DNA of 64,000 bases from Hymenobacter rigui (GTDB taxonomy: Bacteria; Bacteroidota; Bacteroidia; Cytophagales; Hymenobacteraceae). Positions 10,801-23,274 of the stretch are shown piece after piece; position 1 is the first letter of the stretch; every line of letters begins with the position of its first letter. The stretch is taken from contig NZ_RWIT01000002.1 in NCBI RefSeq assembly GCF_003944715.1, positions 372,001 through 436,000 on the forward strand, given 5' to 3'. A model generated the notes under the pieces. That model was not told the origin of the DNA and ran no database searches. It was given only the letters and a program-made list of their open reading frames with translations. Both the position numbers and the translations under genes were made by a program.

Positions 10801-13800
10801 TCACCGTATTACCGCCTGCTTGCTGGCGGAGCGGCCGTAGCGGGTGGGGAAGTACATCAGCTCGGCTTTGGCGGGGTTGACGGTATAGTGGCCCCGGTAG
10901 CGCGGCTGCAGGGCAATGCGGAATGTGTGGCGGCCGACGGGCAGCACATCCATGAAAATGCCCACCTGGTGGCGCAGGTACTCCCGGTGCACCTCAAAGG
11001 CGTTGCCGCGCGCTGGCTCCCCGTAGGAGCAGCCCGCCGGGATGGGCACTTCCAGCAGTACGTAGCGGGCTTCGGCTTTTACCTCCACGGTTACTTCCAG
11101 CTCGGCCGGCTGCCCGGCCGGTAGCTGCACGCTGCTACTCTCCTGCCCGGCCAGGCGGGTGCGCACCACGAAAGGAGCGGCTACGGCGGCCGGCGCGGGG
11201 TTCCAGAACGATTGATAGGCCGTGGCGTACACCGGCAGGCCGCCCTGCTTGTGCAACGTGAGCGGCCCGGCAGCTGCCGGCATTGTCGTCTCAAACGGGA
11301 ATTTGTTGATTTCCTGGGTGAGCCCGCCGCTGAGCCGGGCCCGGGCCGTGAGGCCGCCGCTGGCCGGCACCACCAGGTCGGGGCCGATGGTGGCCAGAAT
11401 TTGGGCGGCTTCGTAGGTACTGGCCCAATGGCCCTGCTGGCGGCGCTGCTGCAATAAGTATGTTCGGATGCGCAACAGCTCCCGCTCCTGTCCGCCCTGG
11501 GCCCGGAGCAGCCGGTACGCCAGCAGCGTATTGCCGACGCGGTCCGGCAGAAGGTACCGGTAATATGAGCCCGTGTGCAGCGTATCGGCATAAAATACTC
11601 CGCCCAGCTCCGTACGCAGGCGGTAGCGACGCAGCGTATCCAACTGGAACGGCAGGCCGGTTTGCTGGCGCAGCTGCGTGAGGGCCAGGTACCGGTCGAG
11701 GGGCTGGCGGCCGCGCGGCTCCTGCTCCATGCGCCGGATCAGGGTGGCGAAATCTGGCTGGGCGCCCAGCCGGTAGAGCAGGTGCAGCAGCCGGATCCGG
11801 TCATCATCGGTTCGGAAATACAGGGCATCGAGGCGCTGCCCGTTGGGCGTGGCGGCCAGGGCCTGCCGCACAGCCGCATCAGCAAAGGCCATGTCCAGTT
11901 GCCGGAGCAGAAACTGCCGGAACGGGGCTTTGTCCAGCGCCACTTTGTAGCCCTGCTCCTCGGCCTGCAGCAAGGCCTCCAGCACGTGCAGCGTGGCCCA
12001 GGGGCTCACCGGCGACGTGGGCCAGGTGCCCCACAGGCCTTCCGGCTGATGGCGGCCGCGCAGCAGGTGCCGAATGAGCCGCTCTACGTTGCGGCCTTCT
12101 TTGAAAGGCTGCTGCAACCCCTGCCGGATGCGCTGCTCCAGCAGCAGCCCCAGCAGCTTGGAAGCCGCCTGCTCGTTGCAGAGGTACGCGTACCCCTGCA
12201 GGTGCCGGATTTCCTCCAGCAGCACGGGCAACGGGTCGCTTTCCAGCCGCACCGTCACGGGGCCCAGCTCCGGGCGTACTGACAGGGTAAGGGTCGTATC
12301 GGGGGCGGTAACGACGGCGAAGGTGCCCACCCGCTCCCGGGTACCGGCCGGCAATACCGGCAGGTGCCGCAACTCCCCATCCTGATAGCCGTTGGGCTGC
12401 ATCAGGCTGAAGCTCACGGACACGGAATCGGTATCGGAGGGGGCCGTGAAGGTGAGCGTATCCACGGCCGACGTGGCCACACGGCGGGCCTGAGTGCGGG
12501 CCGGCCCCTCGCCTACCCGGAAGCGGATGGTTACCTGGGCCGTATCGGGCAGGTAGTTGAGGGTTTTGCCCAGCACCTGCGGCCGGTCGCCCTGCACCAG
12601 GAAGCGTGGAGCGGCCAACTCTCCCATCACGGCTTTAAAAGACCGAAGCTTCTGGGTGAAGCAGCCGGTGCGGGCGTGGTTGTCGGAGGCCAGCACGAAG
12701 GTATCCCAGCCGGTAATATCGTCGGGAATAATCACCTCGGTGCGGGCCTGGCCCTGCTGGTCGGTCACCAGCGTGGGGCGCCACCAGCCCACGTCCGAGA
12801 AGCGCTGCCGCAGGGACAGGCGCGGGTCGCGGCCGGCGGCCAGGGGCAGGCCATCGGGGCCCAGCGCGGCCGGAGCACCATTCAGGCCCGGGGCCGGACG
12901 GCCGGGCACCCCGTTTTTGGTAGTGATGATCAGAACCCCATTGGCCGCCCGAGAGCCGTACATAGCCATGGCCGACTCGGGTTTCAGCACCTGCACGTTG
13001 GCAATCAGGTCGGGGCTGAGGCTGCTCAGGTCGCCGCTGTACGGCAGCCCGTCCACAATAAGCAACGGCTGGCCGCCTGGTAAGCTACTGGCTCCGCGGA
13101 TCATAACGCGGCTCCGGCCATCGGGCAACGTCTGAATCTGCAGGCCGGCTACCTTACCCTGCAGGTCTTGGGTTGAGGCAATGCTTTCCACCGCTACAGG
13201 TTGGCCTCCCACCTTCGTCACGCCGAAGCCTGTCACAACCACTTCCTGCAACTGCTTACTGTCCGTTGCCAACGCCTCCCGGATATCCAGCCCATCAATC
13301 CGGCGCTCCTTCGATACATAGCCGATAGAGGAAAACGTTAAAACACTGCCTTCGAGCGGGGCAGACAGCACGAAGCTGCCATCAGCCTGCGTGCTGACGC
13401 CGATGGTGGTGCCCTTCAGCAGCACCGTTACGCCGGGCAGTCCCTCCCCGGTGGACCGGTCAGTAACGCGGCCGCGCACCACCACCCAGCCGGGCTGCGG
13501 AATGACGGGAGTGGCTACCGGAATTTCGCGGCGGGCTTCCAGCTCTTCTTTTGGGGTGGGCTGAGCGGCCAGCAGGCGCCGGTCAATTTCGCGGGTGATG
13601 CGGCGCTTGAAGGTGCGCCAGGCTGGGCCGGTGGTAAGGCGGTCCAGGGAATCCAGCTGTACATAAGTGGTCCCGTTGGCCTGCACCTGAACATCAATGG
13701 CCGGGGCCAGTACGGAGTTATCGGCCAGCAGCAGCGCCAGGCGGTAGCGGCCGGGCGGCAAGCCGTGCACCGGCTGCGGCAGGTAGCGCAACAGCCGGTT

Positions 13801-16800
13801 GAAAGCAGGTACCGATGGCTGCGTGACCAATGTATACAGCACCGGCGGCAACCCAATACGGCCGCGCTGCACCGGCAGGCGCACCTCTACCCGCCCCTGT
13901 CCGGCTGGGGTGCTGGTGGGGTTGAGCAGCAATGGCTCGGGGCGGGGCGCGTGGTAGTAGCTGGTAGCCGGGCGGGGCCGCAGGTCGGCTTCGGTGTAGG
14001 CGAAATCGGCCAGGGGCAGCCGGGTAAAATCAGCTGACGCGTCCAGCCGGCCCAGCCGGTCATCGGGCAAACTGCGCATTTTCAGCAGGCCCGCCGTAAA
14101 CGTGTAGCGGAAGCCGGGCTCATGCAGAAACACCTGGCGCAGCCCATCGGAGCGGCGCAGCAGCACCGAATCAGGGCGGAACGGGCCGGCCAGCCAGGTA
14201 TACTGGCTTTCGGACTGGTAGCGAAAGGGTATGGCCGGGCGGTTGGGCAGCTGGGGCCGGCCCTCGCCCACGGCCTGCAGGCGGTTGCCCTGGCGCAACA
14301 GCAGCCGCTCGTGCGGCTGATTCCGGTCGATGAGCAGCAGAAACCGGCTCAGCTCACGCTGCTCCTGCACGGTCACGGGGCCCAGCTTCTCTACCTGCAG
14401 CTCGTGGCAGGGGTGGTTAGGGTCGATGCTGAGCGTGAGCTTGTGCAGGTGGCGCAGGCGCACATCGTGCAGGGTAATGCGGTGGGTGGGCGTCCGGATA
14501 GCCACCACGTGCCGGCCGCTGTCGGCCACCAGCGCGAAAGGCTCTTCCCCATTTACGGCCGCCACATACACCGGCAGGCCATCCACGTACACCGCCACCG
14601 TGGGCTGCACCCGACCGGAATCCACCACAAACGGAGCCAGCTGCGTGATGCCGCCGGGCGCCGGACGGTACTCGTAAAACGCACCAAACTCGGGGTACAG
14701 GAACTGATAAAACCGCAGCGAGTCGAGGCCCAGCCGCTGCCGCCACGCGCCCCAAGGCAACGGCTGCTGCGCCGGCTGATCGGCGTTATTCTCGAAGCCC
14801 GCGCCCAGCCCGAACCGCCGCCAGGAAATGCGTCCCTGCACCGCCGGCTCAAAATCGGGCAGGGCGGGCGCATCCGGCTGGTCGAACTTGCTGGTGTAGG
14901 CGTAGGCCGTCAGGTCGGCGCGGGGCACGGGGCGGCCGGCGCCGTCGCGCACGGTATAGCGCAGCTGCACTTTCTGGCCGGGGTACACCACTTCGGGCTG
15001 GTCGGCCTCAATGGTGAGCCGGTGCTGGGGCAGCGGCACGTTGTACTCGGCCGTGCGCAGCTGCCCGCCCCAGAAGTAATGCAGCGACACGTACCACGGC
15101 TCAGAGCCCAGGGCAGGCAGCCGCAATGCAAGGGCCGTGGTGTACTCGCGGCGCACCAGGGTGTTGCCCCGGTACAGATAGTACCAGAAGGAAAGCCGGC
15201 GCGGGTTATCCAGGGCCAGGAAAATGGAATCTGGGGTGCGGTCGGAGCGCACCAGCAGGCCGGCATTATCGGCGGCGAGAAACAGGGTGGCGGCGTGCTG
15301 CTGCGCATCCTGCAGCTGGTAGCGGGTGGCGCGGGCATCCACGGGGCGGGCCAGCGGCAGCGTTACCGCTTCCCGCGTGGTCATCTCCCCTTTCTCAGCA
15401 TTGAACCGGGTAACGCGCAGCGTGGCCGCTCCCGGCCGGGACTTGCCATCGACCAGGTAGCGGGCCACCACGGAATCCTGGCGCAGCTCCAGCTGCAGCT
15501 CCCCTTCTTCCAGCACATACCCCACGGTGGCAGCCTGCGTGCGGCGCTCATTGTCGCTGTTCAGGAACACGGCTTGCACCTGGTAGGTGAGGTTGGCGGC
15601 GGGCAGAGCCGTAGCGGGCAGGTTCAGGCGGGTTTCACCGACGGCATCCAGCGGCTGGGCGCGGGTCCAGAGGGTATCGGGCACAAACACCTGCCGGCCG
15701 GGGAAGCGGCCCACGCCGGCGGGCGTCACGCTCAGCCGCACGCGGGCATCCAGCAGGTTCAGCTCGTTGGCATCCTGCCCCCGCAGAAACAGCGCCTGCG
15801 TGGTGCCGGTCCGGTGCGTGGTCTGGGCCGGGCGTAGGGTGTAGCGCGTGTTTTTCAGCTCGTAGTCTTCCATCCGGAAGCTGCTTTCCGCCACCGTTTG
15901 ACCGTTCCGGCCCGGCTGCACCAGCTCCAGGGCAATGCGCTGGTCGGCACGCAGATTCAGGGTATCCAGCAGCGGGGCCGCGTACTCGTAGGAGCCTGGC
16001 CGCACCGGCCGCAGCACGGCCAGCAGCCGGCTCCGGCGGTCCTGCTCGGGCAGGAGGCGCAGCTCCAGCGGGCGGCGGTAGGGCCGCCCGTGGCGGCTGA
16101 GGATGCGGGCCTTCAGGCGCAGCGTATCGGCCTGGGGGCGGTAGCGGGGCTTGCTCAGCGCCAGATACGTCTGCCACCGTTGCCCGTGCTGCTCGGCCCG
16201 TCGGTCCTGCCGCTCCTCCCGCGCATCGGCGCTGAATGCGGCCCGCACCAGCCCAATGGGCCCGGTGTACACATTGGAAGCATACCGCAGCTGCCCCACC
16301 AGCGTGCGTACCGGCCCGGTCAGCAGCCCCAGCGGAAACCCGAATACCACCCGCTGGTACACCCGTCGCCAGGTAAGCGGGTAATGGCGGCCGGAAGGGC
16401 GCTGATATGGAAACGTCTGGGTAAGCGCGTGAAATGTGGTGCGGCCGCCCTGCTCCACCGCCAGCAGCCCTGCCCGCGCCCTGCGCCCGGACAGGCGGTA
16501 GGTTTGCGTAGCCGCATCAAACGGCACAGCGCGGCCTTTGGGCAGGGTCACGCGGGCATCGGGCAGCAGCCGGCCCACGGAGTCCAGCACCAGCACCGAC
16601 AGATCCACCTGATTATCCAGCAGCGTGAGCTGCCGGCTGGTGCGGGCGTGCAGCCAGAACACCAACTGCGGCCCTTCGGTGTGGGCCACCAGGTAGTAAC
16701 CCAGCGGCAGGGCCGCCAGCCGCAGCCGGCCCAGCGAGTCGGCATCCGTCGGAAACGAATCCACTGCTTGCGTGAAGAACTCCGGGCGGGCCGCGTTCAG

Positions 16801-16962
16801 CCCCCGCTCGTAGAGCACGCGCGTCTGGCTATCCGTCAGGCGAAATACTTTCGTGAAATAACTGCGCTGCCGGGCCACCGCTACCGGCTGCTGCGCGGAG
16901 CCAGCAACAGCAGTGGCCAGCAAAAAAATCAACAGAAACAGCGGACGTAAAAATTGCAACAT
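10801..16962 (-). CDS. Giant alpha-2-macroglobulin family protein with internal CarboxypepD_reg and TonB-receptor plug domains
   Basis: The 2053-residue protein starts with a signal peptide (residues 1-24). About 25-1150 are macroglobulin-like beta domains. At ~1160-1245 comes a carboxypeptidase-regulatory-like domain (VVVRGRVTDRSTGEGLPGV) and at ~1250-1355 a SusC-type plug (SRVMIRGASSLPGGQPLLIV, ending AANGVLIITTKNG). The macroglobulin core then resumes at ~1391 with VGWWRPTLVTDQQGQA and IIPDDITGWDTFVLA. The thioester motif is present as CNEQ at residues 1595-1598, inside an alpha-alpha toroid-like region. There is no TonB-receptor beta-barrel. Macroglobulins trap proteases or modify attackers. 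Bacteroidota versions with an embedded plug exist, but their mechanism is unknown. The gene stands alone, divergent from the small-secreted-protein pair. Confidence 0.9.
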   Translation of the reverse strand: MLQFLRPLFLLIFLLATAVAGSAQQPVAVARQRSYFTKVFRLTDSQTRVLYERGLNAARPEFFTQAVDSFPTDADSLGRLRLAALPLGYYLVAHTEGPQLVFWLHARTSRQLTLLDNQVDLSVLVLDSVGRLLPDARVTLPKGRAVPFDAATQTYRLSGRRARAGLLAVEQGGRTTFHALTQTFPYQRPSGRHYPLTWRRVYQRVVFGFPLGLLTGPVRTLVGQLRYASNVYTGPIGLVRAAFSADAREERQDRRAEQHGQRWQTYLALSKPRYRPQADTLRLKARILSRHGRPYRRPLELRLLPEQDRRSRLLAVLRPVRPGSYEYAAPLLDTLNLRADQRIALELVQPGRNGQTVAESSFRMEDYELKNTRYTLRPAQTTHRTGTTQALFLRGQDANELNLLDARVRLSVTPAGVGRFPGRQVFVPDTLWTRAQPLDAVGETRLNLPATALPAANLTYQVQAVFLNSDNERRTQAATVGYVLEEGELQLELRQDSVVARYLVDGKSRPGAATLRVTRFNAEKGEMTTREAVTLPLARPVDARATRYQLQDAQQHAATLFLAADNAGLLVRSDRTPDSIFLALDNPRRLSFWYYLYRGNTLVRREYTTALALRLPALGSEPWYVSLHYFWGGQLRTAEYNVPLPQHRLTIEADQPEVVYPGQKVQLRYTVRDGAGRPVPRADLTAYAYTSKFDQPDAPALPDFEPAVQGRISWRRFGLGAGFENNADQPAQQPLPWGAWRQRLGLDSLRFYQFLYPEFGAFYEYRPAPGGITQLAPFVVDSGRVQPTVAVYVDGLPVYVAAVNGEEPFALVADSGRHVVAIRTPTHRITLHDVRLRHLHKLTLSIDPNHPCHELQVEKLGPVTVQEQRELSRFLLLIDRNQPHERLLLRQGNRLQAVGEGRPQLPNRPAIPFRYQSESQYTWLAGPFRPDSVLLRRSDGLRQVFLHEPGFRYTFTAGLLKMRSLPDDRLGRLDASADFTRLPLADFAYTEADLRPRPATSYYHAPRPEPLLLNPTSTPAGQGRVEVRLPVQRGRIGLPPVLYTLVTQPSVPAFNRLLRYLPQPVHGLPPGRYRLALLLADNSVLAPAIDVQVQANGTTYVQLDSLDRLTTGPAWRTFKRRITREIDRRLLAAQPTPKEELEARREIPVATPVIPQPGWVVVRGRVTDRSTGEGLPGVTVLLKGTTIGVSTQADGSFVLSAPLEGSVLTFSSIGYVSKERRIDGLDIREALATDSKQLQEVVVTGFGVTKVGGQPVAVESIASTQDLQGKVAGLQIQTLPDGRSRVMIRGASSLPGGQPLLIVDGLPYSGDLSSLSPDLIANVQVLKPESAMAMYGSRAANGVLIITTKNGVPGRPAPGLNGAPAALGPDGLPLAAGRDPRLSLRQRFSDVGWWRPTLVTDQQGQARTEVIIPDDITGWDTFVLASDNHARTGCFTQKLRSFKAVMGELAAPRFLVQGDRPQVLGKTLNYLPDTAQVTIRFRVGEGPARTQARRVATSAVDTLTFTAPSDTDSVSVSFSLMQPNGYQDGELRHLPVLPAGTRERVGTFAVVTAPDTTLTLSVRPELGPVTVRLESDPLPVLLEEIRHLQGYAYLCNEQAASKLLGLLLEQRIRQGLQQPFKEGRNVERLIRHLLRGRHQPEGLWGTWPTSPVSPWATLHVLEALLQAEEQGYKVALDKAPFRQFLLRQLDMAFADAAVRQALAATPNGQRLDALYFRTDDDRIRLLHLLYRLGAQPDFATLIRRMEQEPRGRQPLDRYLALTQLRQQTGLPFQLDTLRRYRLRTELGGVFYADTLHTGSYYRYLLPDRVGNTLLAYRLLRAQGGQERELLRIRTYLLQQRRQQGHWASTYEAAQILATIGPDLVVPASGGLTARARLSGGLTQEINKFPFETTMPAAAGPLTLHKQGGLPVYATAYQSFWNPAPAAVAAPFVVRTRLAGQESSSVQLPAGQPAELEVTVEVKAEARYVLLEVPIPAGCSYGEPARGNAFEVHREYLRHQVGIFMDVLPVGRHTFRIALQPRYRGHYTVNPAKAELMYFPTRYGRSASKQAVIR

Positions 16963-17942: not shown

Positions 17943-20183
17943 TCAGTCGGGCAGCAGCTGGGTGACGGCGGCGGGGTTGCGGGCCCACTCGCGGGTGTAG
18001 GCCTCGTCGGCGGCTTCGGGAGTTTCTACCAGCTGCAGGCCCTGGGCTTCGGCCTTGAGGTGCAGCAGTGTACCCACGCTCAGCTTGGCCTCGAGGCGGC
18101 GCAGCAGGCCTTCTACGGCCACCACATCAAGCTGGCCGGTGAGCTGACCGGCGAAGGGCAGCTCCAGCCACACCACTTCCCGGCGCTCCACCACCAGCAC
18201 CCCAAACACCAGCCCTTTGCTCAGGGGCTGCGTTACGCGCACCTGGTGCTGCACGCAGGAGGGGTCGTAGGCCACGCCGCTGCTGCGGCTGATGCGCATG
18301 GGCTGGGCGCTGCTCATCCACCCCACCACCAGGTTGGGCGACAGCGCGCCGTTGGTGTAGGCGTTGCAGGTGAACACCACGTACCGCGCCTCGGCCTGCT
18401 CCAGAGCCGGCAAATCCAGCTCAATGTACTCGGCCGTGCCCACCTTATCCGGGATGGACTGGATGTCGCCGCTGTGCTTGCAGCCGGTGGTGGTGAGCTG
18501 GTTGAAGGCGCAGTAGTCCACACGGTTGTCGTAGGCCACGCGGCAGCTCAGGTCCATATCCAGGTGCTGGGCGGGCAGGCCGGTGCCCCACTGCAGAAAC
18601 AGGCGCACGGCATCACCCTCCACGGCAAAGCGGGTGCCCATCAGGGCCGCGGGCAGGTCCTGCACCGTCTCGCTCCGGTCGCCGATGGCTACGGGCAGGT
18701 AGCGCAGCGTGGGGTCGATGAAGATGGTGCGGCCGGTAGTGGGCTGGGCCGCAAACCGGCGACGCACGGCTTCTAGGGCCAGTTCCGTCACCTGCTCGCG
18801 CATGGCAGTCAGTTGCTCGGGGGCGTAGCGGCTCAGCAGCGGGTGGGCCGGAACGCGCTTTCCCGTCCCGCCCAAGGGCTTTACCGTGCGCTGGTGGCGA
18901 GGGTCGAAGTAGGCTTCGGCGTACATGCTGAGGGTGAACAGCAGGCGGGCCGGCACCTGGTCGAGCACCGTGCGGAAGGCCGCTACCACCGGCTCGGGCC
19001 CGAACCAGAGCATGTTGGCAAACAGCGAGCGGGCAAACAGCCCCGGCCGCTGCTGCAGCAACGCCAGCGTGCGGGTGGCGTCGGTACGCAAGCGGGCCTG
19101 CTCCACCTGGCCCTGCCACACGGGATAGTCCTGGCGGTAAAACCGGTCGAGGGTTTCGCGCAGGCGGGTACGGCCGGCCCGCTGGCTGTATTCGGCCAGC
19201 CGCAGGGCCCGGATGAAGCGCACCCACATGCCGCGCTTGGGATGCATGATTTCGCACTGCTGCAACGGCGACTGGGGCAGCGCGTTCAGCCAGTCGGCCA
19301 CCATGGCCGCGTCGCGGCGGCTGTATTTTAGCTTCAGCGCCTCCAGGGCCTGGGCCCCGGCTGCCACGCGTTGGCTCCGGGCCGGCACCAAGTTGGTGCT
19401 GTTCTGCTGGTGGCGGTGCCGAATGGTTTTGGGCTCTACCAGCTGCAGAAACCCGGTGTGCTTAAACCAGAGGTAGCGCAACACATCGGTGGGCGAGGAA
19501 AACAGCGGCTGGGCCAGCGCCGGCTGCTGCCGGGCCACGTAGCTGTCGATAACGGCCATGCGGGTTTCCTTCATGGCAATGGGCACCCCGGCGGGCAGGG
19601 GCAGCACGGCCAGCAGCAGGCGCAGGCTATCCTGCTGGGTGGCATCGAGGGCGGTTTTGCTCAGCAGCAGGCTGCGCAGAAACGCCTCGGCGTCGGCCGG
19701 CGTCCAGATGTCCAGCACTTTCAGCTTGCTGCCCTGGCCCAGCAGCAACGGACCGGCCGCGCCGAAGGGCGTACCGCAGAAGGGGCAGCCGTTGTAGCGC
19801 TCCAGCGGAAATGCGTTGGCCGGAATGAGGTGGCCGCAGGGCAGGCGCGTACCCTGAGCCGGAAACTGCTGGGCAAACCACGTCAGCAGGTGGTCCACCC
19901 ACGATTCACCGGTGGGCACGTCCCAGCCCTTCACCAGCGGCAGCCAGCTTTTGCTAATGCCCATCACCTCCCGAAAAACGGCCAGCAAATCGTTCTGAAA
20001 CTCAGGAGTAGTACTTTCCAGAGCCCGCAGCAGCGGCTCCGACACGCCGTAGCCCAGGCGGGCCAGATTGGCTACCAGCGCGGCTGTAACGGGCGAAACG
20101 GTGGTAACACCCGCCGCCGGTGCAACCGCCGGCACGTACACCGCCTGCTGGCGCAGGCTCGCTTTCAGGAGTTCTTCTTGCAT
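17943..20183 (-). CDS. RING-like zinc-finger protein with C-terminal TerD-like domain (resembles the MXAN_6230/SCO0854 family)
   Basis: The 746-residue cytoplasmic protein has a zinc-finger-like Cys/His cluster at about residues 116-136 (LPCGHLIP...CPFCGTPF), a long helical middle (~190-480) and a C-terminal TerD-like beta-sandwich (~535-650) with LDMDLSCRVAYDN, the CKHSGD signature and an IELDLPAL strand. From memory this matches the MXAN_6230/SCO0854 RING-domain family, which I could not verify by search. TerD domains bind calcium and recur in stress and RNA-damage-response operons. ATG 20183 (MQEELLKASLRQQ) is chosen over one ten residues upstream. It is co-directional with the structured RNAs (20233-20533) and the nucleotidyltransferase at 20693, suggesting one functional unit. 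No vWA (Ro60-type) MIDAS motif is seen. Confidence 0.6.
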   Translation of the reverse strand: MQEELLKASLRQQAVYVPAVAPAAGVTTVSPVTAALVANLARLGYGVSEPLLRALESTTPEFQNDLLAVFREVMGISKSWLPLVKGWDVPTGESWVDHLLTWFAQQFPAQGTRLPCGHLIPANAFPLERYNGCPFCGTPFGAAGPLLLGQGSKLKVLDIWTPADAEAFLRSLLLSKTALDATQQDSLRLLLAVLPLPAGVPIAMKETRMAVIDSYVARQQPALAQPLFSSPTDVLRYLWFKHTGFLQLVEPKTIRHRHQQNSTNLVPARSQRVAAGAQALEALKLKYSRRDAAMVADWLNALPQSPLQQCEIMHPKRGMWVRFIRALRLAEYSQRAGRTRLRETLDRFYRQDYPVWQGQVEQARLRTDATRTLALLQQRPGLFARSLFANMLWFGPEPVVAAFRTVLDQVPARLLFTLSMYAEAYFDPRHQRTVKPLGGTGKRVPAHPLLSRYAPEQLTAMREQVTELALEAVRRRFAAQPTTGRTIFIDPTLRYLPVAIGDRSETVQDLPAALMGTRFAVEGDAVRLFLQWGTGLPAQHLDMDLSCRVAYDNRVDYCAFNQLTTTGCKHSGDIQSIPDKVGTAEYIELDLPALEQAEARYVVFTCNAYTNGALSPNLVVGWMSSAQPMRISRSSGVAYDPSCVQHQVRVTQPLSKGLVFGVLVVERREVVWLELPFAGQLTGQLDVVAVEGLLRRLEAKLSVGTLLHLKAEAQGLQLVETPEAADEAYTREWARNPAAVTQLLPD

Positions 20184-20232
20184 GACGAATAGCGGGCACC
20201 CCGGCACCCGCATAACATGTGACAGTTATACG

Positions 20233-20422
20233 TGAAGCAGGCCGGACTCGAACCGGCGACCCAAAGGGAAGTAAGCTCAGCTGGGCCCGGAAACCGGTAA
20301 GGGCCGCGCTTTTGGATTTGAACCAAAACCCCGAAGGGTCTACCTGAGAAGTAAGCGCAACTTGACCACAACGGATAATTGCTGAACTAAGACTTTTGCT
20401 CTACCAACTGAGCTACTGCTTC
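20233..20422 (-). ncRNA. tRNA-like RNA with a hugely extended anticodon arm (nested Y-RNA-like insert)
   Basis: Minus strand, 190 nt. Its ends form canonical tRNA parts: acceptor GAAGCAG (20416-20422) with CTGCTTC (20234-20240), T8-A9, a 4-bp D-arm with AGTTGGTA loop (20398-20413), A26, and T-arm GCCGG-TTCGAGT-CCGGC (20241-20257) abutting the acceptor. Instead of a 17-nt anticodon arm there are 139 nt. They begin and end with complements AAAGT (20392-20396) / ACTTC (20268-20272, one mismatch), continue as AGTTCAGC / GCTGAGCT (8 bp, one G-U), and are capped by the module at 20296-20367. CCA is not encoded, as in the tRNA-Asp genes. It is not a usable tRNA and is too short for a group I intron. 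Its position beside the RING/TerD gene fits tRNA-mimicking Y-type RNAs. Confidence 0.65.
20296..20367 (-). ncRNA. Y-RNA-like module with a second, internal tRNA mimic
   Basis: Minus strand, 72 nt, nested in the RNA above. The outer stem GGT-C-AA / TTACC has a single bulged C, like the Ro60-binding stem of Y RNAs. Inside is a compact tRNA mimic (20304-20360): acceptor TTGCGCT / AGCGCGG (7 bp with two G-U), then T-A as positions 8-9, a short TCT-CAGGT-AGA D-like hairpin, an ACCC-TTCG-GGGT tetraloop hairpin in place of the anticodon arm, and T-arm TTTGG-TTCAAAT-CCAAA next to the acceptor strand. This order is what published bacterial Y RNAs with tRNA-like domains show. Whether it is a processed RNA or a domain of the larger one is unknown. 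Confidence 0.6.
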
Positions 20423-20482
20423 AATTTCAATACGAATGATAAGAAAATGACTACCTACCCACCGCTCCGCCGGCCGGAGCCG

Positions 20483-20533
20483 GGTAATGGCGCAGCTGTT
20501 TTTTACAGAAAAAGAAGTAAGCTGCGCTTGACC
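20483..20533 (-). ncRNA. Second Y-RNA-like hairpin without tRNA mimic
   Basis: Minus strand. The same GGT-C-AA / TTACC bulged-C stem recurs, with a 2-nt bulge (CA) on the 3' side at the same place as in the first module (CC). It is followed by a GCGCAG / CTGCGC stem and a CTGT-AAAAA-ACAG inner hairpin. The 9-mer GCTTACTTC occurs here (20514-20522), in the first module (20348-20356) and in the 3' part of the tRNA-like RNA (20268-20276). It lies upstream of the larger RNA on the same strand, between it and the nucleotidyltransferase gene. Confidence 0.5.
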
Positions 20534-20692
20534 AGGCGTTCGAACGACGGAGCAGGCGGGAGATAATCCGGCGGCCAAGATAGCAAAGCCGGTGAGAAAC
20601 TGGCAGCCTGGCCGTGTCGCGCATCAAGCAAGGACGAAGGCTGACAGCCACTTTTCTATCCCCCCGACTTACCAGGCCGCTCCCGCATCTTT

Positions 20693-21775
20693 TCAGGCCG
20701 GGTGCGCTGCGTACCATGCCCGCCGCACCTGCACCAGCAGCTGCTCGGCGGCGGCCCGGTCGGGGGTTTTGGGCAAGCCGGAGGCGGCAAAGGAGGCTTC
20801 TACGCGGGCTACCAGGGCTTCGGCCTCGGCTACCAGCTGCTCGTACTCGAACTCGCCGCGGCGGATTTGCAGCAGGAACTCCCGGTTGGGGCGGCGCACG
20901 TGCAGACGGCCGGTGGTGGCAATTTCCTCGGCCATGCCCAGCAGCCGGAACACGTGGAGCATGTTCTTGGCGTCGTAGTTTTTGCCGTGCTGCACCGTGT
21001 TCTGGTACCGCTCGGGGTTGCGCTTCTGCTCCCACTCCTGGTACTCCCGAAACACGCGGCAGTAGGTGCTGTAGCCGTTGCGGTTGAAGCTCAGATAGGC
21101 CACGGGCACCTCCCCCTTCGGCACGGCCGAGAGCAGCACATCCTGGGAGGTTTCCGCGTCGCGCAGCAGGCCCCGGTAGCCGTGGCGGCCATCGGGCGTT
21201 TCGTCCACGAACAGGGCGTACAGGTCCGTCAGGTGGTTCACGTTGGCTAGGCCGCACTGGCTGGCAGCGTAGCCGCGCCGGTCCAGCCAGGTAGCTACGG
21301 GCTGCGCCCCGGCCCCCACGGTCACGTAGCAGAAATCCAGCACCGATTTGCGCTGGGGCGGCTCGGGGTGGTTGATTTTCTTGTTCAGTCCCCGGGCCTT
21401 TTTGATCTGGGCCACGGCATACTCAGCGAAGCTCTGGCGGCACAGTTGTGAAAGGAAATCCTCCACCTGAAACACCTCGAACAGCGGATGCCGCAGCCGT
21501 ACGCAATCCGCGGGCGAGGCCAGCAGCTCCAGGGCCGTGGGGTTGCTTTTGAGCAGCAGCTCCACGAAGCGGCGCAGCTCGTAGTACACCTCGTCGTTAG
21601 TGGCGTTGGCTACCTGGGGCACGTAGTCGAGGCCGTAGAACTCGGTTTCGGGTAGGATGAACACGCCCTTCAGGTCCACATCGGAGTGGGGCAGGTCGGT
21701 GCCGTAGGCGCGGCTGCCGCTCAGGGCTTCAAATAGAATCAGGCCCCGCTGGCGCAGGTCGTCGATAGTCAGCAT
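20693..21775 (-). CDS. Nucleotidyltransferase of the DNA polymerase beta superfamily (COG3541-like)
   Basis: The 360-residue protein begins with a minimal nucleotidyltransferase domain: FEALSGSRAYGTDLPHSDVD followed by LKGVF. The GS motif and the paired aspartates of SDVD would bind metal-NTP. The remaining ~280 residues are helical and charged (for example KKARGLNKKINHPEP) and match the general build of COG3541-type proteins, which are found in phage and RNA-repair neighbourhoods. The substrate is unknown; tRNA or other RNA 3' ends are plausible given the context. ATG 21775 (MLTIDDLRQ) is preferred to 21838, which would overlap the divergent GNAT gene. It is upstream of, and on the same strand as, the structured RNAs and the RING/TerD gene. 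Confidence 0.8.
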   Translation of the reverse strand: MLTIDDLRQRGLILFEALSGSRAYGTDLPHSDVDLKGVFILPETEFYGLDYVPQVANATNDEVYYELRRFVELLLKSNPTALELLASPADCVRLRHPLFEVFQVEDFLSQLCRQSFAEYAVAQIKKARGLNKKINHPEPPQRKSVLDFCYVTVGAGAQPVATWLDRRGYAASQCGLANVNHLTDLYALFVDETPDGRHGYRGLLRDAETSQDVLLSAVPKGEVPVAYLSFNRNGYSTYCRVFREYQEWEQKRNPERYQNTVQHGKNYDAKNMLHVFRLLGMAEEIATTGRLHVRRPNREFLLQIRRGEFEYEQLVAEAEALVARVEASFAASGLPKTPDRAAAEQLLVQVRRAWYAAHPA

Positions 21776-21806
21776 ATTGCCACGAATGTAACTCCATTGG
21801 TTCAGG

Positions 21807-22286
21807 ATGCCGGCTTCCCTTATACAACTGCGGCCCACCCAGGAGGCCGATTTACCGCACCTCTACGCGTTTCAGCTGGATGCCGAAGCCTGCCGCCTGG
21901 CCGCCTTCGTGCCCGCCGAAAACGCCGACCGGGCCGCCTACCTGGCCAAATTTCAGCGGTTTCTGCACACGCCCACCATCCACATGCAGAGCATTCTGGT
22001 AGACGGGGAGCTGGCCGGCAGCATCGCCAAGTTTGAAATCGAAGGCGAAGCTGAAATTACGTACTGGCTCGACCGGCGCTACTGGGGCCGGGGCGTGGCC
22101 ACGGCCGCGCTGCGCCAGTTTTTGACCCTGGAGCCGGCCCGCCCCCTGCACGGCCGGGTGGCCTGCGACAATTTCGGCTCCCGGAAAGTGCTGGAGAACT
22201 GCGGCTTCGTGCCAATCGGCACCGATACAGGCTTCGCCCCCGCCCGGCAAACGGAGGTGGAAGAGGTTATCTACCAGCTGTCCTAG
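21807..22286 (+). CDS. GNAT family N-acetyltransferase (RimJ/RimL-like)
   Basis: A 159-residue acetyl-CoA-dependent acetyltransferase of the RimJ/RimL type. It shows IQLRPTQEADLPHLYAFQ at the N-terminus, AEITYWLDRRYWGRGVATAA (the acetyl-CoA-binding R/QxxGxG/A loop as RRYWGRGVATA) at about residues 89-104, and the closing ACDNFGSRKVLENCGF segment typical of the group. The acceptor substrate cannot be deduced. The gene is divergent from the nucleotidyltransferase with only 31 bp between starts, so they may share a control region. Confidence 0.9.
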   Translation: MPASLIQLRPTQEADLPHLYAFQLDAEACRLAAFVPAENADRAAYLAKFQRFLHTPTIHMQSILVDGELAGSIAKFEIEGEAEITYWLDRRYWGRGVATAALRQFLTLEPARPLHGRVACDNFGSRKVLENCGFVPIGTDTGFAPARQTEVEEVIYQLS

Positions 22287-22416: not shown

Positions 22417-23238
22417 CTACTTGTATAGCCAGGCCCGGAACACGGCATCCAGGGCCGGCGTGGGGTTGGGCTGGTGCGGGACGGGCAGGGTGGCGCGGGC
22501 GGCCTGGCCAGCGTCGTATTCCTGCTGCAGGTAGGCCACCAGCGCCGCCGGCCGGGGCACGGTGGTTTTCTCGTTGGCAGTGGATTTCTGAGCGAGCAGC
22601 TCATCCACCGTGCTGTTCAGGGCCGGGGGCAGCAGCTCGCGCAGCCGGGCAAACTCCATCGGCGGCACTTCGGTGGGGCGCTGCTGAATCCAGCTAGCGG
22701 CCAGGGCCGAGCGCAGGGCGTAGAACAGCCGCTTGAGGCGCACCTGCTCGCCGGTCAGGTCCTCCTCCACCCCACGCCGTAGCTGGCCCAGGTAGTGGTG
22801 CAGGCCGGCCCGCGGGTTCCAACAGGCGGGCAGCAGCGGCTGCAGCGCCGCCCGAAACCCGGCCGCCTCCCGGTACACCACCGGCGACTGAAGCCACTCC
22901 AGCAGCGCCGCGTTGGAGCCGCGCAGCAGCTTCAGGGCCTTGCGCAGCTCCCAGCCGCCCAGGTCCAGCTCGTCGTCCACGGGGAAGCTGAGCGTGTCGG
23001 GACCGTCATCGAGGGTCAGGTACCAGTCGGCGGAATGACTGTAGATGAAGCGCACGTCGTAGTCGGAATCGGGCGAGGGGAAGCCCCAGGCCCGGCTGCC
23101 CGACTCGCAGGCGTACAGGATGCGGATGTTGTGCGTGGCTTCGAGTTGGGTGAGGGCGGTCTGGATGCGGTGCTGCACGGGCAGAATTAGAGAGTGAATG
23201 ATGGAATTGATTTCTACAGCTGTTCCGGTCAATGGCAC
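22417..23238 (-). CDS. Nucleotidyltransferase domain protein (COG3541-like), second copy
   Basis: A ~273-residue protein with the nucleotidyltransferase signature ILYACESGSRAWGFPSPDSD and YDVRFIY, where GSRAWG and DSDYD form the NTP/metal site, followed by WELRKALKLLRGSNAALLEW and a helical C-terminal half. It is a distant homologue of the product of 20693-21775. No in-frame ATG lies near the domain; GTG 23238 is the most likely start and TTG 23232 or GTG 23244 are alternatives, so the first ~10 residues are uncertain. The ORF is open much further upstream only by chance. It is bracketed tightly by the inverted repeats at 22302 and 23275, suggesting it moved in, or was trapped, as a unit. Confidence 0.78.
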   Translation of the reverse strand: MPLTGTAVEINSIIHSLILPVQHRIQTALTQLEATHNIRILYACESGSRAWGFPSPDSDYDVRFIYSHSADWYLTLDDGPDTLSFPVDDELDLGGWELRKALKLLRGSNAALLEWLQSPVVYREAAGFRAALQPLLPACWNPRAGLHHYLGQLRRGVEEDLTGEQVRLKRLFYALRSALAASWIQQRPTEVPPMEFARLRELLPPALNSTVDELLAQKSTANEKTTVPRPAALVAYLQQEYDAGQAARATLPVPHQPNPTPALDAVFRAWLYK

Positions 23239-23274
23239 CAGCACCGATACTATGGCGGATTTTTGAACGGAATA

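Follow-up and report, generated by a model that had tools for sequence, protein, structure and literature searches.

The systems closest to the locus described here are the bacterial Y RNAs and the Ro60-type proteins with which they associate. The partner of the D. radiodurans Y RNA is the TROVE-family protein Rsr. Burroughs and Aravind (2016) reportedly described a tRNA-like RNA in Band-7/SPFH RNA-repair systems, which would share with the present locus a tRNA-like RNA in a repair system. YrlA (RF02553), encoded in the Salmonella rsr-yrlBA-rtcBA operon, combines a Ro-binding stem with a tRNA-like D-arm, T-arm and acceptor and sits in an RNA-repair operon with RtcB (PMC8394870, PMC7790460). 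YrlA superposes on tRNA as a circular permutant (PMC11472068); there and in the RF02553 consensus its acceptor is closed and both its termini lie in the Ro stem. Ro60 binds Y RNAs primarily at a bulged C (PMC4030889). The Salmonella operon responds to damaged tRNAs, and YrlA may, as the authors of that work propose, competitively inhibit an anticodon nuclease (PMC7790460). In the D. radiodurans Y RNA, by its Rfam consensus (RF01053), the sequence UUACUUC follows directly after a helix, a feature shared by the RNAs described below, whereas a tRNA body in tRNA order is absent from the D. radiodurans RNA.

The locus compared with these systems lies in Hymenobacter rigui (contig NZ_RWIT01000002.1), and all positions refer to the 64-kb window, by which we mean the whole stretch of DNA that was analysed. 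Direct reading of the minus strand confirmed a canonical acceptor, T8-A9, D-arm and T-arm at the ends of a 190-nt RNA, as the original prediction had stated; these elements enclose a Y-type insert in the anticodon arm, AAAG/CTTT being the remnant of the anticodon stem, and the RNA ends at the discriminator A as its final base, CCA not being encoded. The RNA features of the locus are as follows.

20233..20422, minus strand: tRNA-bodied Y-like RNA, 190 nt (direct reading; homologues; family covariation)
20422-20416/20240-20234, minus strand: acceptor GAAGCAG/CTGCTTC (direct reading)
20413-20398, minus strand: D-arm GCTCAGTTGGTAGAGC, preceded by T8-A9 (U8-A9) (direct reading)
20257-20241, minus strand: T-arm GCCGG-TTCGAGT-CCGGC (direct reading)
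20398..20422, minus strand: acceptor 5' strand, U8-A9 and D-arm (25-base pattern search of own genome)
20274..20388, minus strand: outer Y module in permuted order (direct reading; compared with simple chimeras)
20268..20274, minus strand: UUACUUC element of the outer module (direct reading; comparison with simple chimeras)
20296..20367, minus strand: nested direct-order Y module with inner tRNA mimic, at the tip of the insert (direct reading; homologues; covariation)
20479..20537, minus strand: stand-alone Y-like hairpin, 59 nt, GGUCAAG-helix-UUACUUC...helix-CAUUACC (motif and folding)
20576..20582, minus strand: TATCTTG, 49 nt ahead of the first GGTCAA (possible Bacteroidota -7 element)

The outer module is built on a helix of AGTTCAGC and GCTGAGCT (20388-20381/20281-20274), with AATTATCC on the 5' side of the helix and a degenerate GGGCCCAG on the 3' side. 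Within the nested module (20367-20296), the GGT-C-AA/TTACC blocks (GGUCAA/UUACC) can pair leaving one C over, UUACUUC lies at 20354-20348, and a 7-bp acceptor-like helix (TTGCGCT/AGCGCGG), a UUCG hairpin and a T-arm (TTTGG-TTCAAAT-CCAAA) complete the mimic. The stand-alone hairpin upstream (20537-20479) has the GGUCAAG, UUACUUC and AUUACC blocks in common with the 190-nt RNA; this hairpin, the adjoining RlaP genes and the membership of the 190-nt RNA in an array had all been missing from the original prediction. By the Bacteroidota promoter consensus the TATCTTG sequence is a possible -7 element, and TAnCTT[GA] stands 43-50 nt before the first GGTCAA motif in seven of nine named Hymenobacter loci tested as well as in the window. 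The 25-base pattern at 20398..20422 had a single zero-mismatch match in its own genome, with five more at 2-3 mismatches.

Standard tools did not call the 190-nt RNA: ARAGORN, and Rfam at gathering score, reported only two tRNA-Asp genes in the 64-kb window, both elsewhere. At a relaxed threshold the RNA scored 17.3 bits against the tRNA model (RF00005), below the gathering score of 29; some homologues, with an insert of 53-69 nt, exceed that gathering score. The YrlA model (RF02553) had no match in the window, and in five RING loci scanned its best match, 34.2 of 69 bits in L092, covers two tandem units and was not counted as YrlA; Rfam YrlA and Y RNA matches were under gathering scores. Single-sequence folding gave z -3.63 for the whole 190-nt RNA, with 0 of 200 shuffles as good, and z -3.72 for the stand-alone hairpin; the minimum-energy fold of the whole RNA is formed without the D-arm. 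The inner 72 nt alone gave z -1.55 with 12 of 200 shuffles as good, a stability that is not unusual.

The tRNA-bodied RNA is one member of a large conserved ncRNA family unnamed by Rfam. A wider search yielded 367 relatives, and the best 80 of these (L083-L162, named loci) include Hymenobacter, Flavobacterium, Chitinophaga, Niastella, Microscilla, Aquimarina and Emticicia; in what follows, "the 80 loci" are always these best 80 of 367. When stretches of at most 2 kb upstream of the RING/TerD gene were searched with at most one mismatch allowed, 334 sense motif copies were found, in 80 of the 80 loci and at 1-7 per locus, against 0 antisense copies in the same stretches and 3 in the remaining 625 kb, while a reversed-pattern control gave 0 copies upstream and 14 elsewhere. 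Uniqueness to the strain and decay, which the original prediction named as grounds against itself, are contradicted by the motif in all 80 relatives (best 80 of 367) and by the compensatory changes reported below.

Within the genus, a RING gene match was present in 16 of 120 genomes and the exact pattern GGTCAA-N5-GCTTACTTC in 15 of 120, the two occurring together in 14. The exceptions are G106 (exact motif), G108 (two one-mismatch copies), G094 (one one-mismatch copy) and G115 (a RING fragment only, without motif); the G106 and G108 arrays (L220 and L221) had no RING match in the 7.0 and 5.2 kb examined. With one mismatch allowed, 36 of the 120 genomes match, but the reversed control also matches many, and therefore only the exact same-genus matches are informative. 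The exact motif was met in 21 stretches of viral contigs, a number not above a chance estimate for 15 fixed bases that was made without a control.

A covariance model of the chimeras (R1) was run against 198 genomes of Bacteroidota. The highest scores, 108.5, 99.6, 99.6 and 92.9 bits, came from the three genomes apart from its own that have a RING match in a draw of equal size, and these three may include training-set species. Further matches were 67.8 bits in G131, where the RNA is of another family, and 64.4 bits for the window RNA; matches of 73 nt, presumably ordinary tRNAs, reached at most 58.5 bits. Ordinary tRNAs are hit by R1 as well, so that all of the 198 genomes (198 of 198) contain a match. 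The distribution is sporadic, at 4 of 198 Bacteroidota genomes with its own included. Covariance-model searching, which had been proposed as a check with tRNA and Y RNA/YrlA models, stayed below gathering score with the Rfam models (17.3 of 29 bits for tRNA; no YrlA in the window) and gave the window RNA 64.4 bits with the model of its own family.

The arrays contain three RNA forms, counted by script for tRNA bodies and by a looser pattern with two mismatches for hairpins. Stand-alone hairpins are the commonest: 219 copies of the motif have a 3' partner and fall beyond any parsed tRNA body, and 79 of the 80 loci contain such copies. The script found 99 tRNA-like units upstream, 87 of them with the motif (three of the 87 being partial parses, and one the window's), so that tRNA bodies with the motif occur in 74 of the 80 loci and in the window, with no tRNA body found by the script in 6 of the 80. 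In the tRNA-bodied form the halves of the Y stem are reversed, the order being the 3' half (AAUUACC), a loop, the 5' half (GGUCAA), the helix and UUACUUC. In the nested form, of which 12 cases including the window were aligned, a direct-order module within a tRNA body surrounds an acceptor-like helix, a hairpin and a T-arm.

Covariation was examined in an alignment (A4) of 29 non-redundant sequences out of 65 chimeras of 105-140 nt, with L104 and L108 left out. In these 29 simple chimeras 96.9% of 834 cells pair, and double changes are seen in 22 of 29 pairs. On none of the five measures does a shuffle equal the alignment (0 of 500), and a shift of the partner by one column lowers pairing to 47-52%. 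The tRNA bodies were picked by acceptor, D and T stem pairing, so covariation of these stems is partly circular, and the module is therefore the fair test. Its 13 pairs are 94.2% paired, and in the 8-bp inner helix, which lay outside the selection, double changes occur in 7 of 8 pairs (29 simple chimeras). Among the 12 nested mimics 94.8% of 250 cells pair, and in the acceptor-like helix 6 of 7 pairs carry double changes. The covariation check on homologous loci upstream of RING/TerD genes, which had been proposed alongside the original prediction, came out in its favour for both the module inner helix and the nested acceptor-like helix. Together with the homologues it supports the two central claims: that the anticodon arm of a tRNA body holds a Y-like module, and that this module encloses a second tRNA mimic.

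The GGU-C-AA stem gave a different picture, with double changes in only 1 of 5 pairs (29 simple chimeras). The C matching the bulged C of Y RNAs is invariant in 29 of 29 chimeras, as are the flanking AA/UU, that is, two A-U pairs. RNAalifold on the same 29 relatives predicted 27 pairs and left the two A-U pairs beside the C open, as did the single-sequence folds of the whole RNA and of the inner 72 nt, and for this reason the single bulged C rests on invariant bases rather than on covariation. A single bulged C in the GGUCAA/AAUUACC stem is plausible from the sequence, and because the two A-U pairs are invariant and left open by RNAalifold, an internal loop may stand in its place.

Of 53 non-redundant chimeras, 43 form all five anticodon-stem pairs across the insert, against a mean of 6.8 and a maximum of 14 when the partners are shuffled. 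In the window RNA, 4 of 5 stem pairs form and there is no canonical anticodon loop. In most relatives the insert interrupts the anticodon arm and does not, as the original description had it, replace it. Where the insert fits best depends on the lineage, the usual positions being after 2, 3 or 5 stem bases. In most Flavobacterium chimeras it comes after the second base of the 5' strand and leaves the remainder of the anticodon arm intact, as in GG[insert]ACA-CTTTTAA-TGTCC. The Flavobacterium loops are mostly CTTTTAA or CTTCTAA, with CTTATAA, TTTCTAA and TTGTTAA also present, and CTGATAA and CTCTTAA loops occur in other Bacteroidota chimeras. Across the Flavobacterium loci (L116-L162) the loop bases vary chiefly at position 35 (CTTTTAA, CTTCTAA, CTTATAA) while the tRNA bodies are closely similar, and judged from these sequences it is as if the anticodon loop itself were evolving.

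Directly downstream of the 190-nt RNA, also on the minus strand, lies the gene with which the array family is associated.

17943..20213, minus strand: gene for a RING / predicted Ro60-like / TerD protein, MXAN_6230/SCO0854-like (conserved start 20183; profiles and predicted structure)

The window protein aligned over residues 21-692 with NF041916, the model of the MXAN_6230/SCO0854 family, whose name states no function, at 162.4 bits; this is below the cut-off of 600 bits, and the protein is therefore a distant branch. Pfam gives only a weak match to its RING finger, at 23.3 of 27 bits. In a model of the whole protein built with 30 sequences (mean pLDDT 77.9), residues about 520-690 match TerD (Z 15.5), and Ro60 entries stand at ranks 7-9, with Z 9.4, 8.1 and 7.9 over 298-313 residues: 9nfa (Ro60/La complex), 9l5y (Thermus phage phiLo) and 2nvo (D. 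radiodurans). When segment 148-515 was modelled alone (pLDDT 83.5) and compared with 972 chains, the Ro60 entries 9nfa, 9nep and 2nvo ranked first (Z 8.2, 8.1 and 7.7; 288, 288 and 273 residues aligned; rmsd 5.2-6.2), two of the three, 9nfa and 9nep, being related entries, and the next match had Z 6.7 over 138 residues; by the structural aligner's notes, a Z near 8 is unremarkable for helical repeats and can reflect a common arrangement. Ro60 was absent from the Foldseek best 50 for both the whole protein and segment 148-515, hhalign of the RING protein against 18 TROVE proteins gave a probability of 0.1% and hence no sequence-profile link, and TROVE (PF05731) was absent among the Pfam matches of 30 members of the RING-protein family. 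On the predicted fold, the middle segment of the RING protein is probably a Ro60-like ring, the ring of Ro60 being one of HEAT-like repeats. The original prediction that no Ro60 gene lies beside the locus holds in so far as its own genome has no TROVE (PF05731) match, but the adjacent RING/TerD protein has a predicted Ro60-like ring.

What the protein shares with Ro60/Rsr (TROVE, PF05731) is a predicted ring-type fold of about 280 residues, putative cognate Y-like RNAs and a repair neighbourhood, while the two differ in that no sequence similarity is detectable and that the vWA domain of Ro60 has RING and TerD-like parts as its counterpart in the RING protein. The best matches in a viral library were two phage proteins, A0A8S5LVH0 (named tellurium-resistant-like) and H6SUA9, at probability 1.00 and E about 0.01. 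PADLOC gave no match for five proteins.

Upstream of the RNA array, the window contains two RlaP-type genes, found in the same place in only 2 of 15 other same-genus loci.

20693..21838, minus strand: RlaP-like pol-beta nucleotidyltransferase (PF10127, 80.1 bits, above the cut-off of 23)
22417..23241, minus strand: RlaP nucleotidyltransferase (PF10127, 254.7 bits, above the cut-off of 23)

Neighbours of the 80 loci were counted in flanks of at most 4 kb after single-linkage clustering, with one representative of each cluster annotated. RtcB was near 27 of these best 80 loci, TatD near 23, T4-type RNA ligase near 10, RlaP types near 8 and 7 (the second type by likeness to the window gene), RNase T-type exonuclease near 7 and PNKP-type kinase-phosphatase near 4. 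A WYL regulator was present at 43 of the 80 loci, in 42 of these upstream and on the other strand, and two Variovorax plasmids have a RING relative near rtcR. Elsewhere in the window (10801-16962, minus strand), a 2053-aa frame contains a SusC/RagA-like segment within a longer protein (165.2 bits; cut-off 368).

TROVE genes were present in 23 of 296 Bacteroidota genomes, and 20 loci from 19 of these 23 served as the canonical Ro60 sample. The pattern GTG[CT][CT]GT...TACTTCG, drawn up after some of these loci had been inspected, had 59 occurrences, in 16 of the 20 loci, all of them on the gene strand (0 on the opposite one), with 1 match for the reversed control; on this result UUACUUC also marks RNAs of canonical Ro60 genes. 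One canonical Ro60 locus scored 38.8 of 80 bits against the D. radiodurans Y RNA model. By element order, the 80 RING loci and the window gave 76 copies in tRNA order, 8 in both orders, 1 in YrlA order, 22 in neither and 232 without a T-arm, and the 20 canonical Ro60 loci gave 17 copies in YrlA order, 2 in tRNA order, 20 in neither and 20 without a T-arm. Beside the RING gene the permuted YrlA order, with T-arm, closed acceptor and D-arm between the halves of the Ro stem, is not the prevailing one. The tRNA-like domain characteristic of bacterial Y RNAs is present as tRNA bodies and nested mimics, with covariation. In YrlA the acceptor is closed and the RNA ends in the Ro stem, whereas the RING-locus RNA begins and finishes as a tRNA does, and a loop caps its Ro-type stem; judged by the order of its elements, the tRNA-bodied RNA corresponds to YrlA in un-permuted form. 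One Flavobacterium genome apparently has both a RING-type array (L151) and two TROVE loci (L189/L202), the contigs being of equal length (2955061 bases).

The original prediction had called such an arrangement undescribed. Neither a tRNA-ordered Y RNA nor a RING-TerD Ro60-like protein appeared in the literature searched (PMC7824862, PMC7159879, PMC7790460, PMC8394870, PMC4030889 and PMC11472068 among it), which covered only part of the key papers, so that the tRNA order may be new. tRNA mimicry by bacterial Y RNAs as such is already known in the permuted form of YrlA (PMC8394870, PMC11472068), and Y RNAs with tRNA-like domains had rightly been named as precedent.

On this evidence we consider it likely that the locus makes Y-type RNAs, un-permuted and tRNA-ended, for a Ro60-like RNP that acts in the repair of RNA, probably tRNA. 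Transcription would start from a promoter before the first hairpin (TAnCTT[GA]), and RNase P, RNase Z, the CCA enzyme and modification enzymes would finish the RNA ends; if tRNA enzymes do finish them, the RNAs would therefore be excised from the RING mRNA leader. The RING protein would bind the GGUCAA/AAUUACC stem as Ro60 binds Y RNA, and through the tRNA face the RNP would recruit repair enzymes that act on tRNA (RtcB or an ATP-dependent ligase, RlaP, PNKP) or else nucleases that cut it.

A more specific job, compatible with this reading as Y-type RNAs of a Ro60-like RNP, is that the RNAs are decoys or sensors for anticodon nucleases, such that toxins hit the RNP, which signals or repairs. 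We regard this as possible, if on balance doubtful. It would account for the presentation of a tRNA elbow and, in many members, of a near-complete anticodon stem-loop, with varied loops (CTTTTAA, CTTCTAA and others) on closely similar bodies, and it accords with RtcB, T4-type ligase, RlaP and PNKP nearby and with the sporadic distribution over 4 of 198 genomes. The window RNA, however, has no canonical anticodon loop, and Salmonella YrlA fragments were not detected when tRNAs were cut (PMC7790460), although competitive inhibition is what the authors of that work propose.

That the elements serve as a cis-regulatory leader only, in the 5' UTR, through which the RING protein controls its own mRNA, appears unlikely. 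The last motif does start at a median of 89 nt before the RING match in the 80 loci, as a leader would have it, but 1-7 copies per locus, complete tRNA bodies with both ends conserved and nested mimics are beyond a leader's needs, and arrays without a nearby RING match exist. We consider it quite improbable that the Y module is an intron-like insert whose flanks are joined, for example by RtcB, into a working tRNA. The closing of the anticodon stem across the insert and the RtcB-type gene in the flanks of 27 of the 80 loci are what such splicing would predict; the insert position, however, differs by lineage, 79 of the 80 loci have motif copies with a 3' partner that belong to no parsed tRNA body, and the anticodon changes on a closely similar body, so that aminoacyl identity is unlikely to be kept. 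The intron, as a first reading, was rejected on the variation of insert position and anticodon. A decaying tRNA cluster with insertions and no function, suggested by the failure of tRNA finders at default scores to report the 190-nt RNA, deserves almost no credence and was rejected, being contradicted by covariation with its compensatory changes and by recurrence in Hymenobacter, Flavobacterium, Chitinophaga, Niastella, Aquimarina, Emticicia and others.

Beyond the reading as Y-type RNAs of a Ro60-like RNP in this locus, we put forward tentatively that the MXAN_6230/SCO0854 RING-TerD family may be a second Ro60-type RNP branch, unrecognised by sequence, across phyla and phages, with Y-like RNAs of each lineage's own (UUACUUC or UUCCUUCU after the helix). 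The Bacteroidota RNAs would then be natural un-permuted tRNAs whose anticodon arm bears a Ro handle and which at times enclose a tRNA mimic, acting as sensors of tRNA damage or as scaffolds, and the YrlA RNAs would be their circular permutants. A natural un-permuted counterpart of YrlA makes the origin of Y-RNA tRNA mimicry testable and offers a new way to study the relation between Y RNA and tRNA; an uncharacterised RING-TerD protein family gains a predicted partner and job, and bacterial RNA repair gains a large unnamed ncRNA family, whose motif has 334 copies across the 80 loci.

Several loci outside the arrays described above were also noted. SCO0854-family RING genes lie on plasmids of Variovorax (L222, L245), Niallia (L223) and Streptomyces (L225, L244, L246), flanked by hairpin-like stretches that contain UUCCUUCU; in these six plasmid loci TTCCTTCT was found on the gene strand and outside the gene in 9 of 9 cases, a count from loci related within genera and with a pattern chosen after some had been inspected. 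In Rhodococcus phage Weasels2 (L226:3095-5600), a RING_SCO0854-like protein scored 275.8 of 600 bits. An array of UUACUUC hairpins comes directly after its gene; read by eye, one hairpin has the YrlA order, and an annotated RtcB lies downstream. In a third family (L242:6400-6800, L243:6500-7100) the tRNA bodies hold another anticodon-arm module (UUACU..UUCGC ... GUUCCUA), hairpins of the same kind accompany them, and the gene that follows encodes a protein of 594-596 aa to which neither Pfam nor NCBIfam has a match; RtcB is present in both loci, RlaP and a WYL regulator in L242, and an exonuclease-like frame, recognised by eye, in L243.
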